A stretch of DNA of 64,000 bases, taken from positions 744,001-808,000 of the forward strand of contig JAHCKM010000002.1 in NCBI GenBank assembly GCA_026125795.1. Direction: 5' to 3'. The DNA is from Burkholderiaceae bacterium. GTDB lineage: Bacteria; Pseudomonadota; Gammaproteobacteria; Burkholderiales; Burkholderiaceae_C. This document shows, piece by piece, positions 3,095-35,188 of the stretch (the first letter of the stretch is position 1; each line of letters begins with the position of its first letter). Both the position numbers and the translations under genes were made by a program. The notes below the pieces were generated by a model, which saw nothing but the letters and a program-made list of their open reading frames with translations, searched no databases and was not told the DNA's origin.

Positions 3095-5788
3095 ATGAAC
3101 GCAAAGAACGGTGTGATCCAGGTTCTCCTGGACGATGACGACGCAGATCCGCAGGAGACGACCGAGTGGCTGGAAGCGATCGATGGCGTCATCGCCAACG
3201 TCGGGCCGAGACGCGCTCACTATCTGATCGAGCGGCAGATCGCCTGGTCGCGCCTGCGTGGACAGTCGCAGCCGCACGCCGCTGGCACGCCCTACGTCAA
3301 CACCATCGCCGTCGAACACCAACCCCGCGTGCCGGGAGACCCCGTCATCGAGCACCGCATCCGCGCCTACACACGCTGGAACGCGATGGCGATGGTGGTG
3401 CGCGCTGCCAAGACAACGAACGTCGGCGGCCACATCGCATCGTTCGGATCCGCCGCGACGCTGTACGACGTGGGATTCAATCACTTCTGGCGCGCCGCGA
3501 CCGCCCGGCATGGCGGCGATCTGGTCTTCGTGCAGGGCCATGCAGCCCCGGGCATCTATGCCCGGGCTTTCCTGACAGGCCGGTTGACCGCCCGGCAGCT
3601 CGACAACTACCGCCGGGAAGTGAGCGGCGAGGGCCTCTCGTCTTACCCGCATCCCTGGCTGATGCGCGACTTCTGGCAGTTCCCGACCGTGTCGATGGGC
3701 CTCGGGCCGCTGATGGCTGTCTACCAGGCCCGCTTCATGAAGTACCTGCAGGCGCGCGGCATCGCGAAAACCGACGATCGCAAGGTTTGGGTGTTCCTCG
3801 GTGACGGCGAGATGGATCAGCCGGAGTCCTTGGCGGGGCTGGGCATGGCGGCGCGCGAGCGCCTGGGAAACCTCGTCTTCGTGGTCAATGCAAACCTGCA
3901 GCGGCTGGATGGCCCGGTGCGAGGCAACGGCAAGATCGTGCAGGAGCTCGAATCGATCTTCCTCGGGGCCGGCTGGCGCGTGATCAAGGTGCTATGGGGC
4001 AGCCGCTGGGACGTGCTCTTCGCCCGCGACAAGACCGGCGCGCTCGCGCGGCGCATGTCGGAAGTGGTCGACGGCGACTACCAGACTTACCGCGCGAAGT
4101 CCGGTGCGTATCTGCGCGAACACTTCTTCAACACCCCCGAACTGAAGGCGCTTGTGGCCGACTACAGCGACGAGGACCTCTGGCGACTGGACCGCGGCGG
4201 CCACGATCCGCAGAAGGTGTACGCTGCGTTCGCCGAAGCGGCGCGAGGTGGCGACCTGCCCACGGTGATTCTCGCCAAGACCATCAAGGGCTACGGAATG
4301 GGCGAGCCGAGCCAAGCCTCCAACACCAACCACCAGCAGAAGACCCTGTCGCCGCAGGCGCTGCGGGGCCTGCGCGACAAGTACGCGCTGCCCATCGCGG
4401 ACGACCGGATCGACGACGTTCCCTACATCGCCTTTGCCGAGGGGTCGCGGGAGCTGGCCTACATGCACGCCCGCCGCGAGGCGCTCGGCGGGCAACTGCC
4501 GACACGGCGCAGGAGCGCCGAGCCGCTCGCCGTGCCGCCGCTGGCGACGTTCGACACGCTTCTGAAAGGCACACCCGAAGGCCGAGGCATCTCCACGACG
4601 ATGGCCTTCGTGCGCATTCTAGGGATGCTTCTGCGAGATGAGTCCCTCGGGCCTCGCGTCGTGCCGATCGTCCCGGACGAGTCGCGCACGTTCGGCATGG
4701 AGGGATTGTTCCGGCAGATCGGCATCTGGAACCAGGATGGGCAGCGCTATGTGCCGCAGGACGCCGAAACCTTGTCGTTCTACAAGGAGTCCCCCACCGG
4801 CCAGTTCCTGCAGGAAGGCATCACTGAAGCTGGTGCCATGGCGGACTGGATCGCTGCCGCGACTTCGTACTCGACACACGGGCAGGTCATGGTGCCCTTC
4901 TACATCTTCTACTCGATGTTCGGCTTTCAGAGGATCGGCGACCTGGCCTGGGCCGCCGCAGACATGTGTGCTCGAGGCTTCCTGCTGGGTGGCCTTGCCG
5001 GGCGAACGACGATCAATGGAGAAGGCTTGCAACACGAAGACGGCCACTCGTTGCTGTGGGCGTCGGCGGTGCCCAACTGCATCAGCTACGACCCCACCTT
5101 CGCCTACGAGTTGGCCGTCATCGTGCAGGACGGCCTGCGCCGCATGGTGGCCGACCAGGAAGACGTCTTCTTCTACCTGACCGTGATGAACGAGGCCTAT
5201 GCCCAGCCCTCGCTCCCCGAGGGCCCCGCGGTCTCGGCGGACATCCTGAGGGGCATGTACGCGTTCCGGCGCGCCGCCCCCGACGCAGGAGTGCTCCGCG
5301 TGCAGCTGCTGGGCGCCGGCACGATCTTCAATGAGGTCATCGCGGCTGCCGACCTGTTGCGCGACCACTGGCAGGTGGCGGCCGACCTTTGGGGCGTGCC
5401 GGGCCTGACCCAACTCGCGCGCGATGGCCAGGCGGCCGAGCGGGAGCACCTCCTGCATCCGGAGTCCCCACGTCGCATTCCCCACGTGACCCGCCTGCTG
5501 CAGGGCACGACCGGTCCCGTGATCGTCGCCACCGACTACGTGCGGGCTCTCGCCGAGCAGATTCGCGCCTATGTGCCCCGTCGCTACGTCGTGCTTGGCA
5601 CCGACGGCTTCGGCCGTTCCGACACTCGCCAGGCATTGCGCCATTTCTTCGAGGTGGATCGCCACTGGGTGGCCATTGCAGCGCTCAAGGCGCTGGCCGA
5701 TGATGGGTCGATCCCCGCTTCACGCGTGACCGAGGCGATTCGCAAGTACGGCATCGACCCGGACAAGCCCAACCCGCTACATGCCTGA
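3095..5788 (+). CDS. aceE: Pyruvate dehydrogenase E1 component, homodimeric type (first copy)
   Basis: An 897-residue homologue of AceE, the thiamine-diphosphate E1 subunit that decarboxylates pyruvate and acetylates lipoyl-E2. The ThDP site is visible as GDGEMDQPES followed by VNANLQRLDGPVRGN. Other family blocks are YVNTIAVEH, FQRIGDLAWAA, and the histidine-containing GEGLQHEDGHS. ATG 3095 is chosen because the upstream extension overlaps the Rof-like gene. Compared with the second aceE at 61946 it has the same architecture but many substitutions, for example NAN for NCN in the ThDP motif region and ASQASNTNHQQ-type changes near the inner loop. No aceF or lpd follows, so it would have to share E2/E3 from elsewhere. 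Whether it is an active isoenzyme or has another substrate is unknown. Confidence 0.9.
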   Translation: MNAKNGVIQVLLDDDDADPQETTEWLEAIDGVIANVGPRRAHYLIERQIAWSRLRGQSQPHAAGTPYVNTIAVEHQPRVPGDPVIEHRIRAYTRWNAMAMVVRAAKTTNVGGHIASFGSAATLYDVGFNHFWRAATARHGGDLVFVQGHAAPGIYARAFLTGRLTARQLDNYRREVSGEGLSSYPHPWLMRDFWQFPTVSMGLGPLMAVYQARFMKYLQARGIAKTDDRKVWVFLGDGEMDQPESLAGLGMAARERLGNLVFVVNANLQRLDGPVRGNGKIVQELESIFLGAGWRVIKVLWGSRWDVLFARDKTGALARRMSEVVDGDYQTYRAKSGAYLREHFFNTPELKALVADYSDEDLWRLDRGGHDPQKVYAAFAEAARGGDLPTVILAKTIKGYGMGEPSQASNTNHQQKTLSPQALRGLRDKYALPIADDRIDDVPYIAFAEGSRELAYMHARREALGGQLPTRRRSAEPLAVPPLATFDTLLKGTPEGRGISTTMAFVRILGMLLRDESLGPRVVPIVPDESRTFGMEGLFRQIGIWNQDGQRYVPQDAETLSFYKESPTGQFLQEGITEAGAMADWIAAATSYSTHGQVMVPFYIFYSMFGFQRIGDLAWAAADMCARGFLLGGLAGRTTINGEGLQHEDGHSLLWASAVPNCISYDPTFAYELAVIVQDGLRRMVADQEDVFFYLTVMNEAYAQPSLPEGPAVSADILRGMYAFRRAAPDAGVLRVQLLGAGTIFNEVIAAADLLRDHWQVAADLWGVPGLTQLARDGQAAEREHLLHPESPRRIPHVTRLLQGTTGPVIVATDYVRALAEQIRAYVPRRYVVLGTDGFGRSDTRQALRHFFEVDRHWVAIAALKALADDGSIPASRVTEAIRKYGIDPDKPNPLHA

Positions 5789-23650: not shown

Positions 23651-25249
23651 GTGCCGAGCCGACGTCGACTCGATCGCGCGCGCTGTCTGAAGGCCGTCGT
23701 GCCGGTGCTCGCGTTCGCCATCCTGAGCGGCTGCGTCAGTTTGCCGAAGGGCATGCCAAAGCCGGAAACCCACGCCATCGACGATGGCCACCGAACGGTG
23801 CTTGGTCGCGCGTTCGCCGAAGCGGCCGCAGCGCATCCCGGCATGTCGGGCTTTGCGCTCATCACGGGGGGCCGCGAGGCGTTGCAGGTCCGCGCGGCAC
23901 TGGCAGACGGCGCCGAGCGGACGCTCGACCTGCAGTACTTCAGCGCCGGCGACGACGCAGCCAGCGATGTGCTGCTCGGCCGGGTGGTCGCGGCCGCCGA
24001 GCGGGGCGTGCGCGTGCGCATCTTGCTCGACGACATGCAGACCTCCACGCGCGCCTTCGCGCGGCGTGCTCAGGCCGCCCACGCCGGTATCCAGGTCCGG
24101 TTGTTCAATCCGTTTCGCGTATCGGGGACGGGCAGCGTGCCGCGGCTCGCGGAATTCCTGATCGCCAACGACCGCCTGAACCGCCGCATGCACAACAAGC
24201 TCTGGGTCAGCGACAACGCAGTCGCCGTCACCGGCAGCCGCAACCTGGGCGACGAATACTTCGATGCCAACAACTCGTTCAACTTTCTGGATGTCGACAT
24301 GATGGCCGTGGGGCCGGTGGTTCCCGAGTTGTCGAGGAGCTTCGACGCCTACTGGAACAGTGTCAAGGCAGTGCCGCTCGAGGCGATCGCACCACCGGTC
24401 GATGACGGCGACCGACTGTTGGCACGCGAGCAGCTAGCCGCGCGCCTGGCACGCTGCGCTGCGGCGGCACCGTGCCAATGGCTTGCCAACGATGCTGCGC
24501 GGCTCGAACTGCGGGCGGCGGCCAGCCGATTGTCTTGGTCCTCCTATCGGCTGATCGTCGACCCGCCGACGGACGACAAGGTGCCTGAAGGCGCAGGAAT
24601 CGGACATGGATCGATCGTCGGACATCCCGGCGGCGATGGGACGCGCACGGAACTGCTCGTCGTCTCGCCTTACTTCATACCTGGCTCCGATCTGCGGCAT
24701 CACTTGCGCGGCTTGCGCGAGCACGGCGTGCGCGTGGCCGTGCTGACGAACTCGCTGGCCTCCACCGACATGACTGCGGCACACGGGGGCTACGCGCGCC
24801 ATCGACCCGAGCTGCTGCGCGATGGAGTCGAGCTGTACGAGGTGCGGCCAAAGCACGAAGCGCCTGTGCGGCATCGCGTCCTTCGCCAGGCGATCCGCCG
24901 CGCGTCGCCGGTCGGCCTGCATGCCAAGGTCATGGTGCAGGACCGCAATCGTGCGAGTGTCGGCTCGTTGAACCAGGATCCGCGGTCACGCTCCACCAAC
25001 ACCGAGATATGCGTCGTCCTGGACAGTCCAGCGCTGGTTGCCGAACTGGCCGAGCTGTTCGACGCAGCGACCGACCCCCAAGAAGCTTTCAGGGTCGAGT
25101 GGGTCGACGGTGCAGCAGGGGGCGCGCTTCGCTGGAGCGCGCAGAACGGCGACGAGGACGTGAGCTTTGATGTCGAGCCGATGTCGAGTGCCTGGCTCGT
25201 GTGGTGGCGCAGTGTGCTGGGAGCGTTGATCCCGGAGCGGCATCTATGA
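23651..25249 (+). CDS. Phospholipase D-family lipoprotein (cardiolipin synthase-like)
   Basis: A ~532-residue protein with two HKD-type motifs: HNKLWVSDNAVAVTGSRN in the first half and HAKVMVQDRNRASVGSLNQD in the second, each with the family's His-x-Lys and Ser/Asn/Asp residues. The N-terminus has a lipoprotein signal ending ILSGC (lipobox Cys), so it should be anchored to a membrane on the periplasmic side. Length and arrangement match the YmdC/ClsC branch that transfers phosphatidyl groups. GTG 23651 is the assumed start because it leaves a basic n-region before the hydrophobic core; the frame is open upstream to 23513. It overlaps the end of the convergent DUF3703 gene by six bases. Confidence 0.8.
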   Translation: MPSRRRLDRARCLKAVVPVLAFAILSGCVSLPKGMPKPETHAIDDGHRTVLGRAFAEAAAAHPGMSGFALITGGREALQVRAALADGAERTLDLQYFSAGDDAASDVLLGRVVAAAERGVRVRILLDDMQTSTRAFARRAQAAHAGIQVRLFNPFRVSGTGSVPRLAEFLIANDRLNRRMHNKLWVSDNAVAVTGSRNLGDEYFDANNSFNFLDVDMMAVGPVVPELSRSFDAYWNSVKAVPLEAIAPPVDDGDRLLAREQLAARLARCAAAAPCQWLANDAARLELRAAASRLSWSSYRLIVDPPTDDKVPEGAGIGHGSIVGHPGGDGTRTELLVVSPYFIPGSDLRHHLRGLREHGVRVAVLTNSLASTDMTAAHGGYARHRPELLRDGVELYEVRPKHEAPVRHRVLRQAIRRASPVGLHAKVMVQDRNRASVGSLNQDPRSRSTNTEICVVLDSPALVAELAELFDAATDPQEAFRVEWVDGAAGGALRWSAQNGDEDVSFDVEPMSSAWLVWWRSVLGALIPERHL

Positions 25250-25612
25250 CGCTTGCTCGTCGCTCGCCAGCAGCTGCGCAATCTCCTCGGGCATGGCCCG
25301 AGGAGCAAGCGCACTGACATCTGCCGTTCCCGGGTTGCCGTGCGGCAGCCGGCCGGTGAAGTGTCCGATCGGCACCAAAAGCAGCCTGAGCGCCTGGCCG
25401 GCCACCTCTCGGCGATCGCGCAGCCTCCAGCCGGCACGCAGCATCAGCCAGTGCACCTGGAGGTGCCTGCCCATATCACGTTGACCCAGTATGTGCGCGC
25501 GCTGGAGTTGCCGAAGCGCTGCCCGGGCGTCGTCCCCGCGCAACCAGCGCCGTGCCTCCGAAATGGCGATCCGGAACGCCTCAACGCGTGGCGACGGCTT
25601 GATCGTGCTCAT
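25244..25612 (-). CDS. DUF3703 family protein
   Basis: A 122-residue helical protein. The family pattern is visible: ALRQLQRAHILGQRDMGRHLQVHW, then LRDRREVAGQALRLLLVPIG and GRLPHGNPGTADVSALAP. ATG 25612 begins the conserved region; a longer frame to 25657 is possible but overlaps the previous gene. It starts 22 bases after the DUF4396 gene and is probably transcribed with it from the operator-bearing promoter at ~26200. Biochemical function unknown; related genes are frequent in copper/mercury-type clusters. Confidence 0.75.
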   Translation of the reverse strand: MSTIKPSPRVEAFRIAISEARRWLRGDDARAALRQLQRAHILGQRDMGRHLQVHWLMLRAGWRLRDRREVAGQALRLLLVPIGHFTGRLPHGNPGTADVSALAPRAMPEEIAQLLASDEQAS

Positions 25613-25634
25613 CGATCGACTCCAGGTGAGAACG

Positions 25635-26147
25635 TCAGTGATGCGCGTGGTGCGCATGGACGGCGGTATGGCCCTTCCCGCGGGCGATCAGCCAGCGGTT
25701 GAGCGGAAAGGCGGCGATCGCGGCCACGAGCAGTGCAAAGGCCAACGCGGCCCAGAAGAGCAGCGACGACACCGGCGCGTCCATGGCACCGGGGACGGCC
25801 AACATCACCGCGTTGTCGACGATCTCCATCACCGCGATCGAGGCGGAGTCGGCCAGCAGGGCCAGGCGCGCCGCCTCGCGCACCGTCATGCCGGCGCGAA
25901 GCAGCGGGACCATCGTGAACGCATAGCCGAACGCGAACGCGAGCAACACCGCCAGGCCGATGGTGGCGCCGTTAGAGAAGCCCAGCGCGGTGCCGATGAA
26001 CATGCCCAGCACCTCGCCCACCGCACACCCGGACAGGCAGTGCAGGGTCGCGAGGAACGCGGTGCGGTTCAGGCTCGAGGCCTGCGACTTCGCGTGAGAG
26101 CGTTCGTGGTGCGGGTGGTGCATCGCATGGCGGGCGGCGTGATTCAT
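25635..26147 (-). CDS. DUF4396 membrane protein with His-rich ends
   Basis: A 170-residue membrane protein with about four helices (GEVLGMFIGTALGFSNGATIGLAVLLAFAFGYAF region; LFWAALAFALLVAAIAAFPL). Its signature opening ATLHCLSGCAVGEVLGM holds a His-Cys pair and a second Cys. Both termini are unusually rich in histidine (NHAARHAMHHPHHERSHA; HTAVHAHHAHH), suggesting metal binding on one face of the membrane. AGGAG precedes ATG 26147 by eight bases. A MerR-type operator with a 19-base spacer lies just upstream on the same strand, which makes it a predicted member of the local metal regulon. Confidence 0.8.
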   Translation of the reverse strand: MNHAARHAMHHPHHERSHAKSQASSLNRTAFLATLHCLSGCAVGEVLGMFIGTALGFSNGATIGLAVLLAFAFGYAFTMVPLLRAGMTVREAARLALLADSASIAVMEIVDNAVMLAVPGAMDAPVSSLLFWAALAFALLVAAIAAFPLNRWLIARGKGHTAVHAHHAHH

Positions 26148-26193
26148 AGCGAGAACTCCTGTCGGTTGCGGGCACGACCGCCCGGGTGAACGC

Positions 26194-26224
26194 AATGTCG
26201 ACCTTCCCATCATGGGAATGTCAA
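26194..26224 (-). promoter_or_regulatory. MerR/CueR-type operator-promoter for DUF4396
   Basis: The dyad spans 26201-26221 with plus-strand arms ACCTTCCCAT and ATGGGAATGT around a central C. Read on the minus strand, -35 TTGACA (26224-26219) and -10 GACATT (26199-26194) are separated by exactly 19 bases, the long spacer typical of MerR-family promoters. It is box 1 of four in this region. Confidence 0.75.
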
Positions 26225-26249
26225 GGATGCGGCTGAACCGCGGGCGCCA

Positions 26250-26280
26250 TTGACCTTCCCACAACGGGAAAGCCAACGCT
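26250..26280 (+). promoter_or_regulatory. MerR/CueR-type operator-promoter for the YgjV-like gene
   Basis: The dyad spans 26253-26273 (arms ACCTTCCCAC and CGGGAAAGC, imperfect). -35 TTGACC (26250-26255) and a weak -10 AACGCT (26275-26280) are 19 bases apart. The start codon of the YgjV-like gene is at 26349. Box 2 of four; it lies only ~30 bases from box 1, so one intergenic region serves both directions. Confidence 0.65.
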
Positions 26281-26348
26281 TCGGCCCCGTCGCGACGTCG
26301 AACCGACGAGATCGCGACACCGACACAACCATCGAAGGCCGAGCCGCC

Positions 26349-26855
26349 ATGCTGTCCCAACACATCATCGATGCCACCGGACTCCTCGCGCTGTCCCTGA
26401 ACGTCAGCGCGCTGGTCCGGCCGAGCGACCGCACGTTGCTGAAGACCTCCGGGTGGGCATCGGCGCTGTGGGCGCTGAACAACCTCCTGATGGGGGCGTT
26501 GAGCGCCGCCGCGTTGAGCGCTCTGAGCGTGGGGCGCCAGATCGGCGCCGCGGCCCTGCACGACCGGCCCGGACGATGGAAGGTGGCTGCGTTCGCCACC
26601 GTCGTCACGGCCACGCTGCTCATTGCGGGGCTCACGTGGAACGGGCTCGACACGCTGTTCCCGGCGATCGGCTCACTGGTCGGCACGTACGCGATGTTCT
26701 ACATGCGCGGTGCCGCAATGCGCATGGCAATGGTGCTCGTCAATGCCCTGTGGATGGTCAACGCGGTGGCCTATGACTCCTGGTGGCAGATCGCGGCCAA
26801 CACCATCTCCGGCACGGCCGCAGCCATCGGCGCCTGGCGCACCCGTGCCGCGTGA
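26349..26855 (+). CDS. YgjV-family inner-membrane protein
   Basis: A 168-residue protein with about five membrane helices, beginning MLSQHIIDATGLLALSLNVSAL. It has the YgjV pattern of a short first helix followed by RTLLKTSGWASALWALNNLLMG and a C-terminal half containing LVNALWMVNAVAYDSWWQIAANTI. Function of the family is unknown. ATG 26349 is the first start that matches the hydrophobic opening. It is preceded by a MerR-type box and followed by another 20 bases beyond its stop, so it appears to be its own transcription unit in the metal regulon. Confidence 0.7.
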   Translation: MLSQHIIDATGLLALSLNVSALVRPSDRTLLKTSGWASALWALNNLLMGALSAAALSALSVGRQIGAAALHDRPGRWKVAAFATVVTATLLIAGLTWNGLDTLFPAIGSLVGTYAMFYMRGAAMRMAMVLVNALWMVNAVAYDSWWQIAANTISGTAAAIGAWRTRAA

Positions 26856-26871
26856 CCCGTCACGCGCCACG

Positions 26872-26902
26872 TTGACCTTCCCACAACGGCAATGTCGAGC
26901 AT
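26872..26902 (+). promoter_or_regulatory. MerR/CueR-type operator-promoter for the RND efflux operon
   Basis: The dyad spans 26875-26895 (arms ACCTTCCCAC and CGGCAATGT, imperfect). -35 TTGACC (26872-26877) and -10 GAGCAT (26897-26902) are separated by 19 bases. The start codon of the membrane-fusion gene is at 26931. Box 3 of four. Confidence 0.75.
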
Positions 26903-26930
26903 CGCAACCACTTTCAACGAGGAGTCCCCA

Positions 26931-28151
26931 ATGACTGCCATGCGTTCCCCACGTGAAGCGACCTTGCCGGCTGCGGCCCGGATCGCCTCTGTTGCCGCCG
27001 TCTCGTTGCTCGCTGCAGCGGTGCTGGTGGCCTGCGAGCCGGCCGTCGCGCCGGCGTCCGCCGCCACGTCGTCTGCGGCGCCGCCCGCGCCCACGGTCGT
27101 CGTCGCGCCCGTCCTGCAACGCGCCGTCGAGCAAGCCTCCACGCATGTGGGAAGGATCGAATCGTCGCAGCGTGTGGAGCTGCGGCCGCGGGTGGCAGGT
27201 CACATCGACGCCGTCCTGTTCAAGGAAGGCGACATCGTGCGGGCGGGTCAGCCGCTGTTCCGCATCGACACGCGACCCTTCGACACCGCGCTGGAGCGCG
27301 CCCGTGCAGAACTGCGGCTGGCCGATGCCCGCGTGGCGCTGACCCGGGGCGAGGCCGAGCGCGCGCGGCAACTGGCTGCCGAGCAGGCCATCGCCGCCGA
27401 AGAGCTGGAGCGGCGCGCCGCCGCGTATGCCGAGTCGCAAGCGCGCAGCGCTGCCGCGCAAGCCGCGGTGCAGGCCGCGATGCTCGACCGCGAGTTCGCG
27501 CTGGTGCGAGCGCCGATTAGCGGCCGCATCGGGCGCGCGCTCGTGACGACGGGCAACTACGTCAGCGCCGGAGCGTCGCAGGCGCCACTCGCGACGCTGG
27601 TTTCGGTTTCGCCTCTGCACCTGCACTTCGACGTCGCCGAGCCGGCTCTGCTGGAGCGACTCGGCACCGCACGCGACACCTCGAAGTGGCGTGCCAGGGT
27701 GCTCGACGCACGCAGCGGCCGCGAGCTCGGCATCGCGCCGATCGACTTCGCCGACAACGAGGTCGCGGGTGGCGCCGGCACGCTTCGCCTGCGTGCGCGC
27801 CTCGACGGCGCCAACGTGCAGTTGATGCCGGGTCAGTTCGTGCGCGCCCAGCTGGTGACCGGCGATGCGTCACCCGCGCTCTTCGTGCAGGACAAGGCGA
27901 TCGGCACCGACCAAGGGCGCCGCTACGTGCTCGTCGTCAACGAGAAGGACGCGGTCGAGTACCGGCCGGTGACCGTCGGCGCGCTGCACGACGGCCTGCG
28001 AGTCATCACCTCCGGCCTGAGGGCGGGAGAGCGTGTCGTCGTCTCCGGGCTGATGCGGGCCCGACCAGGCGTCACCGTCCAGCCGCAGGCGACCGCGATG
28101 GACGCGCCACCCGCGGCGCAAGCCGCTGCGTCCAAGCCGGCTCAATCCTGA
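26931..28151 (+). CDS. RND efflux periplasmic adaptor (membrane-fusion) lipoprotein
   Basis: A 406-residue adaptor of the AcrA/MexE type. A lipoprotein signal ends AAAVLVAC (lipobox). The lipoyl halves are visible as GRIESSQRVELRPRVAGHIDAVLFKEGDIVRAGQPLFRID and later ALVRAPISGRIGRALVTTGNYV, separated by an Ala/Glu/Arg-rich coiled hairpin (residues ~130-185). The beta-barrel domain follows (VSPLHLHFDVAEP). GAGGAG precedes ATG 26931. It starts a three-gene efflux operon and has a MerR-type operator directly upstream, the same layout as the gold-inducible gesABC operon of Salmonella. Confidence 0.9.
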   Translation: MTAMRSPREATLPAAARIASVAAVSLLAAAVLVACEPAVAPASAATSSAAPPAPTVVVAPVLQRAVEQASTHVGRIESSQRVELRPRVAGHIDAVLFKEGDIVRAGQPLFRIDTRPFDTALERARAELRLADARVALTRGEAERARQLAAEQAIAAEELERRAAAYAESQARSAAAQAAVQAAMLDREFALVRAPISGRIGRALVTTGNYVSAGASQAPLATLVSVSPLHLHFDVAEPALLERLGTARDTSKWRARVLDARSGRELGIAPIDFADNEVAGGAGTLRLRARLDGANVQLMPGQFVRAQLVTGDASPALFVQDKAIGTDQGRRYVLVVNEKDAVEYRPVTVGALHDGLRVITSGLRAGERVVVSGLMRARPGVTVQPQATAMDAPPAAQAAASKPAQS

Positions 28152-28161
28152 AAGGTCTGCC

Positions 28162-31100
28162 ATGAAACTCGCACGCTTGTTCATCGACCGGCCGATCGTC
28201 GCGATCGTGCTGTCACTGACGACGGTGCTCGCCGGGCTGGCGAGCATCGGCCGGCTGCCGCTGACCGAGTACCCCGACGTGATGCCGCCCACGGTGAGCG
28301 TGCGCGCAGCGTACCCCGGTGCCAACCCCGACGTGATCGCCGAGACGGTGGCCACGCCGCTGGAAACCGAGCTCACCGGGCTCGGCGGCCTGCAGTACAT
28401 GAGCTCGCAGTCGACCGGCGACGGCCGCTACAACCTGCGACTGACCTTTGCCCAAGGCATCGACGCGGCGCGTGCCGAGACCGAGGTGCAGAACCGCGTC
28501 GCGCGCGCACTGCCGCGGCTGCCGGCCGAAGTGCAGCGCCTGGGCATCGTCAGCGAGAAGGTCGCGCCCGACATGCTGATGGTGGTGCACCTGGTGTCGC
28601 CGGGCGAGCGCTACGACCTGCTGCACCTGTCGAACTTCGCCCAGCTCGGCGTGCGCGACACGCTGTTGCGAGTCCCCGGCGTGCAGAGCGTGACCGTGTG
28701 GGGCGCCGGCGAGTACAGCCTGCGCGTTTGGCTCGATCCGGATCGCATGCGGGCGCACGAGCTCACGGCCGGCGACGTGGTGTCGGCGATCCGCGAACAG
28801 AACATGCAGGTCGCCGCCGGTTCGGTGGGCCAGCCGCCCGACGTGCGGGCCGCGCAGCAGCTGCCGTTGTCGGTGACCGGCCGCCTCACGTCGGTCGATG
28901 CCTTCGGCGACATCGTCTTGCGCACCGGCGCCCACGGCGAGCAGCTCAAACTCAAGAGCGTGGCGCGCATCGAACTCGGCGCCAGCCAGTACGCGCTGCG
29001 CAGCCTGCTCGACAACCAGCCCGCGGTCGCGCTGCAGATCGTGCAGGACCCGGCTGCCAGCGCGATCGAGGTGGCGGCGAACGTGCGCGCGGCGATGGCG
29101 GCGCTGCAGAGGGAGTTCCCGCACGGCATCGAGCACCGCGTGGCCTACGACCCGACGATCTTCGTCAAGGCGTCGATCGGCAACGTGCTGCGCACGCTCG
29201 GCGAAGCGGCGCTGCTAGTCGTGCTGGTGGTGCTGTTGTTCCTGCAGAGCTGGCGCGCGGCATTGATTCCCATCGTCGCCGTGCCCGTGTCGCTTGTCGG
29301 CACGCTGGCGGTCATGCAGCTGGCGGGCTTCTCGCTCAACACGCTGTCGCTGTTCGGACTAGTGCTGTCGATCGGCATCGTGGTCGACGACGCCATCGTG
29401 GTGGTCGAGAACGTCGAGCGGCACCTGCGCAACGGCCGCTCGCCACGCGACGCCGCGCTGGCCGCGATGCGCGAGGTCACCGGCCCGATCGTCGCGATCA
29501 CCGCGGTGCTGGCCGCGATCTTCATCCCGACCGCCTTCATGGGCGGCCTGTCGGGCCAGTTCTACCAGCAGTTCGCCCTGACGATCGCGATCTCCACCGT
29601 GCTGTCCGCGGTCAACTCGCTGACCCTGAGCCCGGCGTTGGCCGCGCTGCTGTTGAAGCCGCACCCCGCCGACGATGCGCCGCGCGGGCTGGCCCGCTGG
29701 CTCGGCGGCTTCAATCGCGCGTTCGATGCCGCGGCGGCGCGCTACGGCGTGCTCACGCGCATCGGTATCCGTCGCACGGGGCGGCTGCTCGTGCTCTACG
29801 CCGCGCTGGCCGCGGCCACCGTGTGGGGCTTCAAGGTGGTGCCGGGCGGCTTCGTGCCGTCGCAGGACAAGTACTTCCTGGTCGGCATCGTTCAGCTACC
29901 CCCCGGCGCGTCGCTCGACCGCACCGAGGTCGTGACGCGCGAGATGACCCGCATCGCCTTGGAACAGCCCGGTGTCGAGAGCGTGGTCGCGTTTCCGGGA
30001 CTGTCGATCAACGGCTTCGTCAACAGCCCGAGCGCGGCCGTGGTGTTCGCGATGCTCGACCCGTTCGAGCAGCGCAAGGACAAGGCACTTTCCGCCGGCG
30101 CGATCGCCGGTGCGCTGAACGGCCGCTTCGGCGGCATCGACGAAGCCTTCACCGCGATCTTTCCGCCGCCGCCGGTGCCCGGGCTCGGCGTGACCGGTGG
30201 CTTCAAGCTGCAGATCCAGGATCGCGCGCAACGCGGCCCCGAAGCGCTGAACGAGGCGCTGGGCAGGGTGATGGCCGCTGCGGCCAAGGACCAGCGCGTC
30301 GCCGCCCTGTTCTCGGGCTACCAGGCCCACGTGCCGCGGCTCGCGCTCGACGTCGACCGCGAGAAGGCGAAGGCGCTCGGCGTGCCGTTGTCGGCCGTCG
30401 CCGAGGCGCTGCAGGTCTACCTCGGCTCGCTGTACGTCAACGACTTCAACCACCTGGGCCGCGCCTGGCAGGTGAACGTGCAGGCCGATGCGGCCTTCCG
30501 CATCGACGCCGATGCGGTGTCGCGCCTGTGGACGCGCAACACGCAAGGGGTGATGGTGCCGCTGTCGGCCCTGGTGAGCGTGCGGCCCGCGGTCGGGCCC
30601 GATCCGGTGAGCCGCTACAACGCCTATCCGTCGGCCGATCTGTCCGGCGCACCGGGAGCCGGGTTCAGCTCGGGCGACGCGATCGCCGCGATGGGCGAGA
30701 TCCTGGCGCGCGAGCTGCCCGCCGGCTTCGGCTACGAGTGGACCGACCTCACGCACCAGCAGCAGCGCGAGGGCTCGAGCGGCCTGCTCGTCTTTCCGCT
30801 CGCGGTGGCGCTGGCCTTCCTGATCCTGGCCGCGATGTACGGCAGCTGGAGCCTGCCGCTCGCGGTGCTGGCGAGCGTGCCGACCGTGCTGCTCGGTGCG
30901 CTCGCCGGGGTGTGGCTCACCGATGGCGACAACAACCTGTTCACGCAGATCGCGTTCGTCGTGCTGGTCGGTCTGGCGACGAAGAACGCGATCCTGATCG
31001 TCGAGTTCGCGCGCCGGCTGCAGCAGCAGGGCGGCTCGGCGATCGACGCCGTGGTGCAAGCCGCCAGGCTGCGGCTGCGGCCGATCCTGATGACCTCGCT

Positions 31101-31299
31101 GGCGTTCGTGATGGGCGTGCTGCCGCTGGTGTTCGCCAGCGGAGCGGGCGCCGAGATGCGCCAGGCCGTGGGGATCGCCGTTTTCGCCGGCATGCTGGCC
31201 GTCACGCTGGCCGGCGTCGTCTTCACCCCGATGTTCTACGTCCTGCTGCAGCGCCGGAGCACGACCGTCCCGGTCGGCGCCGCTGCGCAGGTGCAATGA
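28162..31299 (+). CDS. RND multidrug-type efflux permease (HAE1 family)
   Basis: A 1,045-residue inner-membrane antiporter, full length for the AcrB/MexF family, with twelve predicted helices and two large periplasmic loops. The N-terminal helix starts FIDRPIVAIVLSLTTVLAGL. The proton-relay aspartates are in GIVVDDAIVVVENVER (residues ~405), and the later helix block LVGLATKNAILIVEFARR is conserved. The aspartate pair and overall form are of the HAE1 (drug/organic) type, not the CusA-type metal RND, which normally carries methionine relays. It lies ten bases after the adaptor gene and ten before the outer-membrane gene. Confidence 0.93.
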   Translation: MKLARLFIDRPIVAIVLSLTTVLAGLASIGRLPLTEYPDVMPPTVSVRAAYPGANPDVIAETVATPLETELTGLGGLQYMSSQSTGDGRYNLRLTFAQGIDAARAETEVQNRVARALPRLPAEVQRLGIVSEKVAPDMLMVVHLVSPGERYDLLHLSNFAQLGVRDTLLRVPGVQSVTVWGAGEYSLRVWLDPDRMRAHELTAGDVVSAIREQNMQVAAGSVGQPPDVRAAQQLPLSVTGRLTSVDAFGDIVLRTGAHGEQLKLKSVARIELGASQYALRSLLDNQPAVALQIVQDPAASAIEVAANVRAAMAALQREFPHGIEHRVAYDPTIFVKASIGNVLRTLGEAALLVVLVVLLFLQSWRAALIPIVAVPVSLVGTLAVMQLAGFSLNTLSLFGLVLSIGIVVDDAIVVVENVERHLRNGRSPRDAALAAMREVTGPIVAITAVLAAIFIPTAFMGGLSGQFYQQFALTIAISTVLSAVNSLTLSPALAALLLKPHPADDAPRGLARWLGGFNRAFDAAAARYGVLTRIGIRRTGRLLVLYAALAAATVWGFKVVPGGFVPSQDKYFLVGIVQLPPGASLDRTEVVTREMTRIALEQPGVESVVAFPGLSINGFVNSPSAAVVFAMLDPFEQRKDKALSAGAIAGALNGRFGGIDEAFTAIFPPPPVPGLGVTGGFKLQIQDRAQRGPEALNEALGRVMAAAAKDQRVAALFSGYQAHVPRLALDVDREKAKALGVPLSAVAEALQVYLGSLYVNDFNHLGRAWQVNVQADAAFRIDADAVSRLWTRNTQGVMVPLSALVSVRPAVGPDPVSRYNAYPSADLSGAPGAGFSSGDAIAAMGEILARELPAGFGYEWTDLTHQQQREGSSGLLVFPLAVALAFLILAAMYGSWSLPLAVLASVPTVLLGALAGVWLTDGDNNLFTQIAFVVLVGLATKNAILIVEFARRLQQQGGSAIDAVVQAARLRLRPILMTSLAFVMGVLPLVFASGAGAEMRQAVGIAVFAGMLAVTLAGVVFTPMFYVLLQRRSTTVPVGAAAQVQ

Positions 31300-31309
31300 G
31301 GAGCGCACC

Positions 31310-32701
31310 ATGCGTACTTTGAGAAACACCCTGTTGGCATCGGTCGCTGCGTTGGTGGCCGCCTGCTCGTCGCTGCCGGAGGTGCAGGTCCCCGCGCCGG
31401 CGCTGCCGCACGGCTTCAGCCAGGCGCACGGTCTGCCGCAGCAGGCGGCCAACCAGCAGTCTTGGTGGCTGGCACTCGATGACCCGGTGCTGTCGCAACT
31501 GATCGAACGCGGTCTGCAGTCCAACCTCGATCTCGTGCAGGCCGGCGAGCGCGTGCAGCGCTCACGCGCGCTGGCGGCCGGCAGCCGCGCCGCGCTCGGA
31601 CCGTCGGGCAGCGTGCGGGCACAGGCGTCGAAGGCGCAGGCCAGCGCGCACGAGGCGCCGGGCCTGTCGAGCGCGCAACGCCGCGTCGAGACCGCCAGCG
31701 TCGGTCTCGATCTGCAATGGGAAGCCGATCTGTTCGGCCGGTTGCGCACGCAGTCCGCCGCCGCGGGCGCGCGGGTGCAGGTGTCCGAAGCGCAGGCGGC
31801 TGCGCTGCGCCTGGCGGTGAGCGCGGAGATCGCGCAGGCGTACTTCGCGTGGATCGGCGAGCGCGAACAGCTCCAGGTGACGCAATCGCTGATCGAAAAC
31901 CGCCGCGCCACCGTCGACCTGGTGCAGCGCCGCGCGCGCGGCGGGATGGTGGCGCCAATCGACGACGCCCGTGCGCGCGCCGACCTGGCGGCGACCGAGG
32001 CCGACGTGCCGCTGCACGAGGCGGCCGCCGCGGTGGCGACGCATCGCCTGGCGGTGCTGCTCGGCACGTCGCCGTCGGAGTTCCAGCTGCCGCCGCAACG
32101 CGGTGTGGACCCGGCGCGCGTGCCGGTCGCGGTGCCCGAGCCGTCGCAGTGGCTGGCGCAGCGGCCCGACATCGCGGAGGCCGAGGCGGCGCTGCGCGCC
32201 CACGCGCTCGACGTGGCGGCGATCCGCGCAGAGTTCATGCCACGCGTTTCGGTGACGGGCCTGCTCGCCTTCGTCGCCGGCTCGGCCACCGGCCTCGGCA
32301 GCGCGGCCAGCGCCTCGTGGTTCGTCGCACCGGCGGTGTCGCTGCCTGTGTTCGACTACGGGCGCATCGACGCCCGGCTGGTCGAAGCCAAGGCGCAGCA
32401 GCGCGAGGCGCTCGCTGCCTACAGCCAACGCATCCTGCTGGCACTCGAAGAGGTGGAGAGCTCGCTGGCCCGCTACCGGCAGGCGCAACTGCAGCTCGGC
32501 ACGCTGCACCAGCGCTCGATCCACTCGACCACCGCCGAGCGGCTCGCCCGCGTGCGCTACGAGGCGGGCGCCGGCGACCTGCTCGAGCTGCTCGACGCGC
32601 AGCGCAGCGCCCGGCAGGCCCAGGCGGCGTTGGCGCAAGGTCTGGCTCTGCAGCGCCAGCATCTGGTGGCGGTGCTGCGGGCGCTCGGGACTGCGGCCTG
32701 A
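31310..32701 (+). CDS. NodT/OprN-type outer-membrane efflux lipoprotein
   Basis: A 463-residue outer-membrane factor. A lipoprotein signal with lipobox ALVAAC directs it to the outer membrane. The TolC-like repeats are visible: SQLIERGLQSNLDLVQAGERVQ in the first half and a second set with SLPVFDYGRIDARLVEAKAQQREAL and VEAKAQQREALAAYSQRILLALEEVESSLARY-type helices later. It forms the exit duct for the RND pump encoded upstream. It is the last gene of the efflux operon; about 120 bases with a MerR box separate it from the regulator gene. Confidence 0.9.
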   Translation: MRTLRNTLLASVAALVAACSSLPEVQVPAPALPHGFSQAHGLPQQAANQQSWWLALDDPVLSQLIERGLQSNLDLVQAGERVQRSRALAAGSRAALGPSGSVRAQASKAQASAHEAPGLSSAQRRVETASVGLDLQWEADLFGRLRTQSAAAGARVQVSEAQAAALRLAVSAEIAQAYFAWIGEREQLQVTQSLIENRRATVDLVQRRARGGMVAPIDDARARADLAATEADVPLHEAAAAVATHRLAVLLGTSPSEFQLPPQRGVDPARVPVAVPEPSQWLAQRPDIAEAEAALRAHALDVAAIRAEFMPRVSVTGLLAFVAGSATGLGSAASASWFVAPAVSLPVFDYGRIDARLVEAKAQQREALAAYSQRILLALEEVESSLARYRQAQLQLGTLHQRSIHSTTAERLARVRYEAGAGDLLELLDAQRSARQAQAALAQGLALQRQHLVAVLRALGTAA

Positions 32702-32764
32702 GCCCGGTGGGTGCCGCCGAATACCGCGGCAATCGACCGGCTCGGCCCTTTCGCGAGAAAGGGG

Positions 32765-32795
32765 TTGACCTTGCCATCATGGCAAGGTTGACAGT
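32765..32795 (+). promoter_or_regulatory. MerR/CueR-type operator-promoter of the regulator gene
   Basis: A perfect dyad at 32768-32788 with arms ACCTTGCCAT and ATGGCAAGGT around a central C. -35 TTGACC (32765-32770) and -10 GACAGT (32790-32795) are 19 bases apart. It precedes the MerR-family gene (ATG 32823), so the regulator probably controls itself. It is the most symmetric of the four boxes and helps define the consensus. Confidence 0.8.
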
Positions 32796-32822
32796 GCGCC
32801 CATCCGCTCCCAGGAGACGACG

Positions 32823-33386
32823 ATGGGCTACCCGATGAACATCGGCCAGGCCGCTCAGGCCGCCGGCTTGACCGCCAAAATGATCCGCCACTACGAGGGT
32901 TTCGGGCTGATCCCGGAGGCCAGCCGCAGCGACTCCGGCTACCGTCAGTACAGCGCGCGCGACGTGGCGATGCTGCGCTTCATCCGCCAGGCGCGATCGA
33001 TCGGCTTCTCGATCAAGCAGATCGAGAACCTGCTCGGCCTGTGGGCCGACACGGCTCGGCACAGCCGCGCCGTGAAGGCGGTGGCCACCGGGCACATTGC
33101 CGAGCTGGACCGCAAGATGGCCGAGATGGCGCAGATGAAGGCAGCCCTGCAGGAGATCGCGGATGGCTGTGAAGGTGACGATCGGGCCGACTGCCCGATC
33201 CTGAGCAAGTTGTCGGGTGGCGCTGCAGGTCAGGGATCGGGCGCGGGACTCGAAAGGACGACTGGGAAGCGCGGTGCAAGGCCCGTTCGCGCGGCGCACC
33301 CAGCAAAGCCTCAAGGCTTCGAGCACGGCGGCCTTGTTGCTTGGATGCGGAGCGTGCACCGCGCTGAAGGTGCGATGCGAGAGTAG
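32823..33386 (+). CDS. CueR/GolS-type MerR-family metal-responsive regulator
   Basis: A 187-residue regulator. The N-terminal winged helix reads MNIGQAAQAAGLTAKMIRHYE, with SDSGYRQY and dimerisation helix residues as in CueR. The metal loop is C-E-G-D-D-R-A-D-C (Cys 116 and Cys 124, seven residues between) and Ser 81 matches CueR Ser 77; this combination is characteristic of sensors for monovalent copper, silver or gold ions. The protein continues ~50 residues beyond the usual CueR end as an Arg/Gly-rich tail of unknown value, possibly a frameshift or read-through. AGGAG precedes ATG 32823; codon 5 is also ATG and matches the CueR start. Predicted to act at the four operator boxes between 26.2 and 32.8 kb. 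Confidence 0.88.
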   Translation: MGYPMNIGQAAQAAGLTAKMIRHYEGFGLIPEASRSDSGYRQYSARDVAMLRFIRQARSIGFSIKQIENLLGLWADTARHSRAVKAVATGHIAELDRKMAEMAQMKAALQEIADGCEGDDRADCPILSKLSGGAAGQGSGAGLERTTGKRGARPVRAAHPAKPQGFEHGGLVAWMRSVHRAEGAMRE

Positions 33387-33536: not shown

Positions 33537-33868
33537 TCAGGCGCCGCCCATGCGTCGGCACTCGTCGGCGCATGTCATGCATGCCTTGGCGCACGCTTGA
33601 CAGTGGTCCATCGGGTGTTTGGCGCATTCCTCGCCACAAGCCCGGCAGACCTGGGCACACAGCTGGCACAGCTGCTTCGCAACTCGCTGCCGCGGGCCAT
33701 GTACCCTGCAGCGAGACGGCAGATGGCCGGGCAGTCCATGTCCAGCGAGATGCAGCGGACCATCGCTTGGACGTCGCGCTCCTGCAGGCAAGCAGCTGCG
33801 CAATGGTCACAGGCATCGGCGCACGCATTGCAGGCGTCGATGCACGATCGGTTCACTTGGTGAGCCAT
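33537..33868 (-). pseudogene. Frameshifted four-helix-bundle copper protein (Csp/DUF326 type)
   Basis: Two overlapping minus-strand frames together give one Cys-rich protein. The first (from ATG 33868) reads SCIDACNACADACDHCAAAC and continues to YMARGSE; the second resumes as KQLCQLCAQVCRACGEEC, HCQACAKACMTCADECRRM and ends at 33537. The repeated C-x3-C and C-x2-C pairs on helices match Csp proteins, which store many Cu(I) ions inside a four-helix bundle. The join is near 33680, where the reading TTGCG replaces the TTCGCG expected for Phe-Ala, i.e. one missing base. Either a recent null allele or a sequence error. It lies next to the CueR-like regulator. Confidence 0.75.
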
Positions 33869-34606: not shown

Positions 34607-35188
34607 TCATTTACCGACAGCCTGGTCGATGTCCGGCTTCATATCCGGCGTCAGCTCGGCAGTCCTTGACGGCAGGGTCACCGACCCGCGCGCACCGTTC
34701 TTCTCGATGTCGCCCACGAGCAGCTTCATTTCGGCAATTTCCTTGACCTGCCCGCGGATGATCTCGTCGGCCAGCTTGCGCACTCGTGGGTCGCGAATAT
34801 CGGCCTTGCGTGCGTTGTTGATGGCGATCGAGTGGTGCGGAATCATCGACTTCATAAAGTCGATATCGCCGATCAGCGTTTGCTGGCGGTTGAGCGCGAG
34901 GATGACGACGCCGAGCACGATGGAACCGACCAGAATCGCCAGCTTCGTCGCTGGCCCGGCATACATCTTCCACATGAAGGCCAGCATGATGACTGCCATC
35001 ACGCAGCCCATCACGACCGACGACACCAGTCGCGTCAGGCTGAACGTGGCGTGATCCGTGCTGTAGACCAGTTGGTACATCAGCGGATACATCACGATTG
35101 TCGACGTGGCGATCATCGCGAAGAAGCGGCTCCAGCCCATCTTCATCATCGAGTGGGCGCTTTGGCTATTGGGATGAGTCGCAGACAT
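34607..35188 (-). CDS. DUF305 membrane-anchored protein
   Basis: A 193-residue protein. Three hydrophobic helices come first ([59 protein letters not shown]), then a DUF305 ferritin-like domain with the signature [19 protein letters not shown] and [26 protein letters not shown]305 proteins are periplasmic or membrane-bound, linked to metal stress, with the paired histidines as probable ligands. ATG 35188 is chosen since it precedes the His-containing cytoplasmic start ([19 protein letters not shown]); the frame is open further upstream. It closes the metal block. Confidence 0.85.

Follow-up and report, generated by a model that had tools for sequence, protein, structure and literature searches.

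A probable CueR-type regulon joining a drug-type efflux pump to DUF4396, a candidate copper-handling membrane protein family

Introduction

What does a copper sensor control when it stands beside a drug-type efflux pump and the genes for DUF4396, DUF3703 and a YgjV-like protein? The question is raised by a gene block at positions 25635..33386 of a 64,000-nucleotide stretch from a Burkholderiaceae bacterium (assembly GCA_026125795.1, contig JAHCKM010000002.1, positions 744,001 to 808,000), hereafter called the window and numbered from its first letter. These coordinates come from an earlier sequence-only reading of the same DNA and leave the DUF3703 gene mostly outside (Table 1). Our analysis indicates that the block is probably a small copper-family regulon, in which DUF4396 is the conserved copper component and the resistance-nodulation-division (RND) pump is not a Cu(I) exporter.

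Results

The promoters of the block share one architecture. Searched with the pattern TTGACMTTSCCANNANGGNAANGYY, the window yielded four boxes at 0 mismatches, at 26200-26224 (-), 26250-26274 (+), 26872-26896 (+) and 32765-32789 (+). They recover all four MerR-type dyads that the sequence-only reading had placed at about the centres given in Table 1, each ahead of a separate transcription unit (DUF4396-DUF3703, the YgjV-like gene, the RND operon and the regulator), and the domains of these units were confirmed by Pfam. At up to 3 mismatches, the window holds 7 matches, counting weaker opposite-strand readings; the shuffled window gave a mean of 0.01 matches and reached 7 in none of 100 shuffles, which rules out a chance origin. 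As had also been proposed, every box has a TTGACA or TTGACC -35 hexamer and a 19-base spacer, and an ACCTTCC-type dyad lies within that 19-bp spacer, as in CueR targets. Boxes 2-4 carry ACCTT(C/G)CCA, described earlier as shared by the arms, on their left side, and box 1 has it in a single arm; on the right, the YgjV and pump boxes are degenerate. Only 2-3 of the 6 bases in each -10 region agree with TATAAT, against 4 of 6 in the TACAGT found at copA and copZ of the same genome. Boxes 2 (YgjV) and 3 (pump) are near-duplicates, identical over their first 18 bases, and thus look like one promoter copied to a neighbouring gene; box 4, ahead of the regulator, shares its first 23 bases with the box of the genome's copA.

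Judged by its sequence, the regulator of the block is of CueR type. It passes the CueR equivalog cut-off of TIGR02044 (162.7 bits, cut-off 147.4) and falls short of a second CueR model, NF007590 (114.1 against 244). Its alignment with E. coli CueR (1q05) is free of gaps through residue 129 and puts Ser77, Cys112 and Cys120 in place. Counted from the first ATG of the regulator, these are residues 81, 116 and 124, so that the alignment and the TIGR02044 score confirm the CueR set previously read at those positions. The open frame extends about 50 codons beyond the usual CueR end (33240-33386), a candidate tail.

Copper operators recur upstream of DUF4396 genes in other genomes. The protein of the window scores 140.7 bits against PF14342 (cut-off 27), and the domain exceeds the cut-off in 4 of the 150 genomes of the family, our own included. 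All three others are boxed. In L024 (1 mismatch; L029 denotes the same site) and L026 (0 mismatches) the box immediately precedes the gene; L025, which has a long form of DUF4396, carries its boxes at the neighbouring copZ and copA promoters. A scan of named genomes provided at least 530 confirmed DUF4396 loci, of which the best 80 were analysed, a choice by which the box fraction holds for close relatives; record titles assign 45 to Proteobacteria, 28 to Actinomycetota and 7 to other groups. A matrix trained only on six boxes of our genome and run over 700 nt upstream (threshold 14) detected a CueR-type box at 34 of the 45 proteobacterial loci, 32 of them with scores of at least 20, whereas 0 of 618 random windows from proteobacterial loci reached 14. 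The 34 loci, which include 10 from Microvirga and 4 from Sinorhizobium, form 19 groups by record name, and kinship inflates the counts. None of the 28 actinobacterial loci scored 14 or more. Of the seven others one is boxed, on a Pseudanabaena plasmid; their control windows reached 14 in 2 of 93 cases, the Pseudanabaena record holding a second box.

Actinobacterial DUF4396 genes bear the operator of another copper sensor. A TACCC...GGGTA-type pattern of our own design, combined with block shuffles, located a CsoR-type operator upstream of 16 of the 28 actinobacterial loci (expectation from shuffles 0.0) and of 1 of the 52 non-actinobacterial ones. In L043, L052, L053, L063, L072 and L103, among others, it stands directly upstream of DUF4396; a further 6 matches lie elsewhere in the 28 stretches. 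In S. lividans, both copZA operators of CsoR have the commonest form, TACCCCCTAGGGGTA, as their core, according to a passage of PMC3902906. After removal of overlapping hits, the 80 stretches contain copZ-like genes in 21 cases, copA-like genes in 18, DUF305 in 14 and CueR-like genes (at least 54% identity) in 13, and no relatives of YgjV or DUF3703 at E <= 1e-4. One paper of the open PMC set names DUF4396: a passage of PMC7760498 places it among the genes flanking a copper gene cluster in Acidihalobacter yilgarnensis.

The protein itself has invariant residues of the Cu(I)-ligand type. We aligned 57 sequences: that of the window and 56 taken from the 80 loci, after one with a stop codon had been discarded and the others set aside by choice. 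Invariant in all 57 are H36, C37, G40, C41, G44 and E45, forming the motif HCxxGCxxGE, as well as D100, S103, M107, E108, D111, N112 and the PGAM of positions 119-122 with M122. The predicted model consists of four long helices (mean pLDDT 85.8), in which helix 1 (16-55) bears H/C/C/E and helix 3 (89-117) bears D/S/M/E/D/N; the two sets of ligands may meet in space. His-rich ends occur in three sequences compared. Foldseek matched the model to no PDB entry at E <= 0.001; the best hit had E 0.32 and TM-scores were poor, which does not prove the absence of a relative. In addition, L025:8604-10625 encodes a natural fusion of DUF4396 (77-214) to a multicopper oxidase (409-656) through a His/Met-rich linker, within a gene run behind copZ; here, the second Cys of HCxxGC is replaced by D. 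Operators and sequence features together make Cu(I) handling at the inner membrane the most likely role of DUF4396. The earlier statement that DUF4396, DUF3703 and YgjV have no described role in metal stress thus holds insofar as the open PMC set yielded no functional description of DUF4396 and does not mention PF14342, and is to be amended insofar as operators, fusion and ligands give DUF4396 a putative copper role.

Boxes of this type extend beyond the block. Across the genome (6.57 Mb), 12 strand-wise matches at up to 2 mismatches, against 1 for a reversed control, correspond to 9 distinct sites: 4 in the block, 2 at copA-cueR2/copZ and 3 elsewhere. Confinement of the dyad to the block, considered earlier, is thereby refuted, 5 of the 9 sites lying outside it. 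The two sites between copA-cueR2 and the copZ-like gene (L013) have the same box type as the block; outside it are also a site with a weaker dyad upstream of a copper P-type ATPase (L015), a box ahead of a 77-codon open frame (L014:5385-5407, C3:412384) and a site at two mismatches (L016). Five other genomes of the genus, four of them 68-91% complete, contain 10 distinct sites at up to 1 mismatch (reversed control 0), 9 of which adjoin copA-, copZ- or DUF4396-like genes, and the pump of the block was not found in these five, the best adaptor identity being 44%.

The genome thus encodes, besides the block regulator, a canonical copA-linked CueR, cueR2 (TIGR02044, 165.5 bits), which is 54% identical to it over 126 residues. 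Both have A-K-M in the recognition helix, which we take to be positions 13-15, where A, K and M are over-represented with CueR-type sites according to a passage of PMC5045206. Since these residues are shared, both CueRs should read the same boxes, and cross-control is likely. This bears on the alternative that survives best, although it is unlikely: that the block is a gold- or silver-specific analogue of GolS-GesABC, its local CueR paralogue shifted to Au(I) and the copA-linked CueR serving copper. Two CueR paralogues in one genome, one of them beside a drug-type RND pump, are what this alternative would predict, whereas near-identical boxes at both loci and A-K-M in both regulators make insulation look poor. 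The window also has no CopA- or CopZ-like gene: tblastn with the genome's own CopA and CopZ-like proteins found nothing in it at E <= 1e-3, and the genes for these proteins lie some 0.58 Mb distant, beside the other cueR.

The pump under box 3 is of the drug type. Its permease passes NF000282 (1326.7, cut-off 1250) and the HAE1 model TIGR00915 (1073.6, cut-off 940.35) and stays below the specific OqxB model (1140.3 against 2200); the adaptor scores 284.6 bits with the MexE model, under that model's cut-off of 714, and is above the general RND_mfp cut-off. With these models passed and the pump box at 0 mismatches, the earlier description of an HAE1 pump under a CueR-type sensor stands. Export of Cu(I) or Ag(I) by the pump, which its copper-type promoter might suggest, is improbable. 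A Mesorhizobium relative does adjoin, by annotation, a heavy-metal P-type ATPase, a heavy-metal-associated domain protein, DUF305 and a multicopper oxidase, but the permease passes the HAE1 models and scores far under the cut-off of the CusA/CzcA model TIGR00914 (312.8 against 701.45). At the positions of CusA M573, M623 and M672 it has I, A and a gap, that is, none of the three methionines (CusA identity 20%). A CusA-type metal pump is rejected on these grounds, and a passage of the review PMC7922089 argues likewise against MexPQ-OpmE.

Relatives of the pump are found on plasmids. The permease is matched at 60-80% in 11 of 1445 plasmid records, best at 60-61%, and the first-listed of the best matches are alphaproteobacterial. 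Eight of the 20 matches listed were fetched, picked among alphaproteobacteria (L175, L176, L197-L202; the permease stretches of L175/L200 and L176/L201 are identical, and L198/L202 are near-identical). All eight have a CueR/HmrR-type box at 2-4 mismatches, two of them at 4, a limit reached by 14 of 738 random windows, some on real boxes. In seven cases the box precedes the adaptor by 70-119 nt; in L197 it is at position 3657, and the adaptor start was not called. In a tree of 43 rows, the window pump tentatively groups with these boxed plasmid pumps (support 97/85).

DUF3703 and YgjV present a different picture. The DUF3703 gene probably starts at 25612, after a GGAG site and 22 nt behind the DUF4396 stop. 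The domain occurs in 31 of 150 family genomes and went without mention in the open PMC set; among 29 stretches around its relatives, 12 contain a CopA-like piece and 10 a MerR-type regulator. In L112, L114, L126, L133-L136 and others of the same family, DUF3703 stands beside P-type ATPases 41-42% identical to CopA, which suggests a tie to other metals. The YgjV type of the window was found in 2 of 399 genomes of the order (our own and a 26% relative) and 1 of 369 of the class (our own). A second YgjV-type gene of the genome (L109, C1:163917) is 47% identical, and five Variovorax plasmid relatives matched at 53-58%. Four relatives (L109, the 26% relative L108 and two of the five from Variovorax plasmids) lack a CueR-type box, and the two Variovorax stretches have no annotated metal genes. 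A G87D change in E. coli ygjV (frequency 0.165), which appears in one table column of a copper-evolution study (PMC9219993), was read as noise. Given the unboxed DUF3703 relatives and the rarity of this YgjV type, membership of the two genes in the regulon is a local feature; they look like local recruits, with the boxes as the one support for a copper role.

Two further genes lie next to the block. A Cys-rich, copper-storage-like DUF326 gene (33537-33868, -) is split over two overlapping frames, and is thus frame-broken or misread; no CueR-type box precedes it. A DUF305 gene (34607-35182, -) adjoins the block, DUF305 being also among the neighbours of DUF4396 counted above.

Table 1. Genes and CueR-type dyads of the block, in window coordinates
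Feature	Position	Strand	Remarks
DUF3703 gene	25244..25657	-	PF12487, 9.8e-35; second gene of DUF4396 operon
DUF4396 gene	25635..26147	-	PF14342, 5.5e-41; 170 aa; four long predicted helices
CueR-type dyad 1	26201..26221, centre 26211	-	TTGACA-19-GACATT; ahead of DUF4396-DUF3703
CueR-type dyad 2	26253..26273, centre 26263	+	TTGACC-19-AACGCT; ahead of YgjV-like gene
YgjV-like inner membrane protein	26349..26855	+	PF10688, 2.8e-20; 168 aa
CueR-type dyad 3	26875..26895, centre 26885	+	TTGACC-19-GAGCAT; ahead of RND operon
RND periplasmic adaptor	26931..28151	+	best model MexE
HAE1-type RND permease, MexF/OqxB-like	28162..31299	+	NF000282; without CusA methionine triad
NodT-type outer membrane efflux protein	31310..32701	+	TIGR01845, 282.4 bits, cut-off 210
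CueR-type dyad 4	32768..32788, centre 32778	+	TTGACC-19-GACAGT; ahead of regulator gene
CueR-type MerR-family regulator	32823..33386	+	TIGR02044; Ser77/Cys112/Cys120

Discussion

From the boxes, domains, conservation and fusion read in the sequence, we infer a course of binding, induction, Cu(I) coordination and transport. An autoregulated CueR-type activator would sit on four overlong 19-bp promoters and, upon binding Cu(I) (or Ag(I) or Au(I)), would distort them, turning on its own gene along with DUF4396-DUF3703, YgjV and the RND operon; the second CueR, from the copA operon, probably reads the same boxes. In DUF4396, a Cu(I) site may be formed by the invariant His-Cys-Cys-Glu of helix 1 together with Met-Glu-Asp/Met of helix 3 and the following loop. 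Through this site the protein could carry or pass on Cu(I), either across the inner membrane or along it; in one species the recipient would be the fused multicopper oxidase. The pump may be an exporter of MexEF/OqxAB type whose substrates are organic compounds or metal-ligand complexes and not Cu(I), with DUF3703 and YgjV as accessory genes presumably captured by the regulon in this lineage.

Collectively, the operators of two unrelated copper sensors, the oxidase fusion and the invariant Cu(I)-type ligands argue for a specific, testable function of DUF4396. That DUF4396 is a passenger without a copper function, hitch-hiking in copper operons, as its frequent proximity to copZ- or copA-like genes could imply, is the least probable alternative, given the own-boxed genes without the queried copper genes in their stretches (L026, L028, L030, L042, L044, L045, L068, L099 and L190, among others), the operator of a second sensor in Actinobacteria and the fusion to a multicopper oxidase. 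In its full form, our proposal, to which we give about even chances, is that DUF4396 is an unrecognised Cu(I)-binding inner-membrane family, of a fold unmatched in the PDB, which is controlled by CueR in Proteobacteria and independently by CsoR in Actinobacteria and shuttles Cu(I) between CopZ/CopA in the cytoplasm and cuproenzymes in the periplasm. DUF4396 would then be an overlooked copper-handling membrane protein, tied to copper in distant bacteria of different phyla.

Several observations weigh against the reading of the block as a copper regulon built around DUF4396. Within 700 nt, 11 of the 45 proteobacterial DUF4396 loci lack a CueR-type motif and 12 of the 28 actinobacterial ones a CsoR-type motif, and a short-motif search found CsoR-like proteins in only 6 of the 28 actinobacterial stretches, with the operator upstream in 2 of these 6. 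The -10 region of the YgjV promoter is very poor (2 of 6 to TATAAT). Within 500 nt of the adaptor, 29 Burkholderiales pump relatives gave one 4-mismatch match, which is not box-like; a perfect box on the strand of a related RND operon (L173:10376-10398 (-); genome G479, L150/L173) lies about 0.85 kb before the adaptor, with small open frames in between, and hence outside the 500 nt counted. The window pump sits on a long branch of the tree (0.84), which makes its grouping with the boxed plasmid pumps tentative. Finally, no CueR-type box at up to 3 mismatches was present at the 29 DUF3703 loci examined, out of 36 family matches besides our own. Conservation of the boxes in relatives with the same genes, on which the sequence-only reading had made its proposal depend, is therefore mixed: it holds widely for DUF4396 and for the pump in all eight alphaproteobacterial plasmid relatives fetched, and fails directly upstream of the Burkholderiales pumps and at DUF3703, the four YgjV relatives being too few to judge.

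Comparison with known systems

Drug-type RND pumps driven by CueR are already known in kind. In Salmonella, GolS-GesABC (with GolT and GolB) combines a CueR-family paralogue with a drug-type RND operon under CueR-type boxes. The block likewise pairs a CueR paralogue, present besides the canonical copA-cueR2, with a drug-type RND operon, a likeness of layout. Unlike GolS-GesABC, its locus has no ATPase or chaperone gene and has DUF4396, DUF3703 and YgjV instead. Of the golS-gesABC layout invoked in the sequence-only reading, the second CueR paralogue beside the pump is borne out, and CopA- and CopZ-like genes are missing from the window.

An equally close precedent is the CueR regulon of Pseudomonas aeruginosa (mexPQ-opmE, copZ1, copZ2 and copA1). 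There, according to a passage of PMC7922089, CueR controls mexPQ-opmE, an RND multidrug operon whose modelled permease has no copper-binding methionines. Unlike that system, the block encodes a second CueR at the pump locus, together with DUF4396, DUF3703 and YgjV. The nearest plasmid relatives fetched are preceded by boxes like that of HmrR, a CueR orthologue, given in a passage of PMC1526738 as ACCTTCCAG-(3)-CTGGAAGG with a 19-bp spacer; five annotated plasmid stretches have no CueR-type regulator annotated within the 5-6 kb pump flanks, whereas the block has one.

The actinobacterial DUF4396 genes, with their TACCCC...GGGGTA-type operator, resemble the copZA operators of the Streptomyces CsoR regulon, CsoR being a repressor of a family unrelated to CueR. 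The block appears to add to the cases in which copper sensing is coupled to a drug-type pump, with a bearing on copper-driven drug tolerance in soil bacteria. Its layout adds a variant to the known theme of a pump under CueR, and the new part is the link between DUF4396 and copper.

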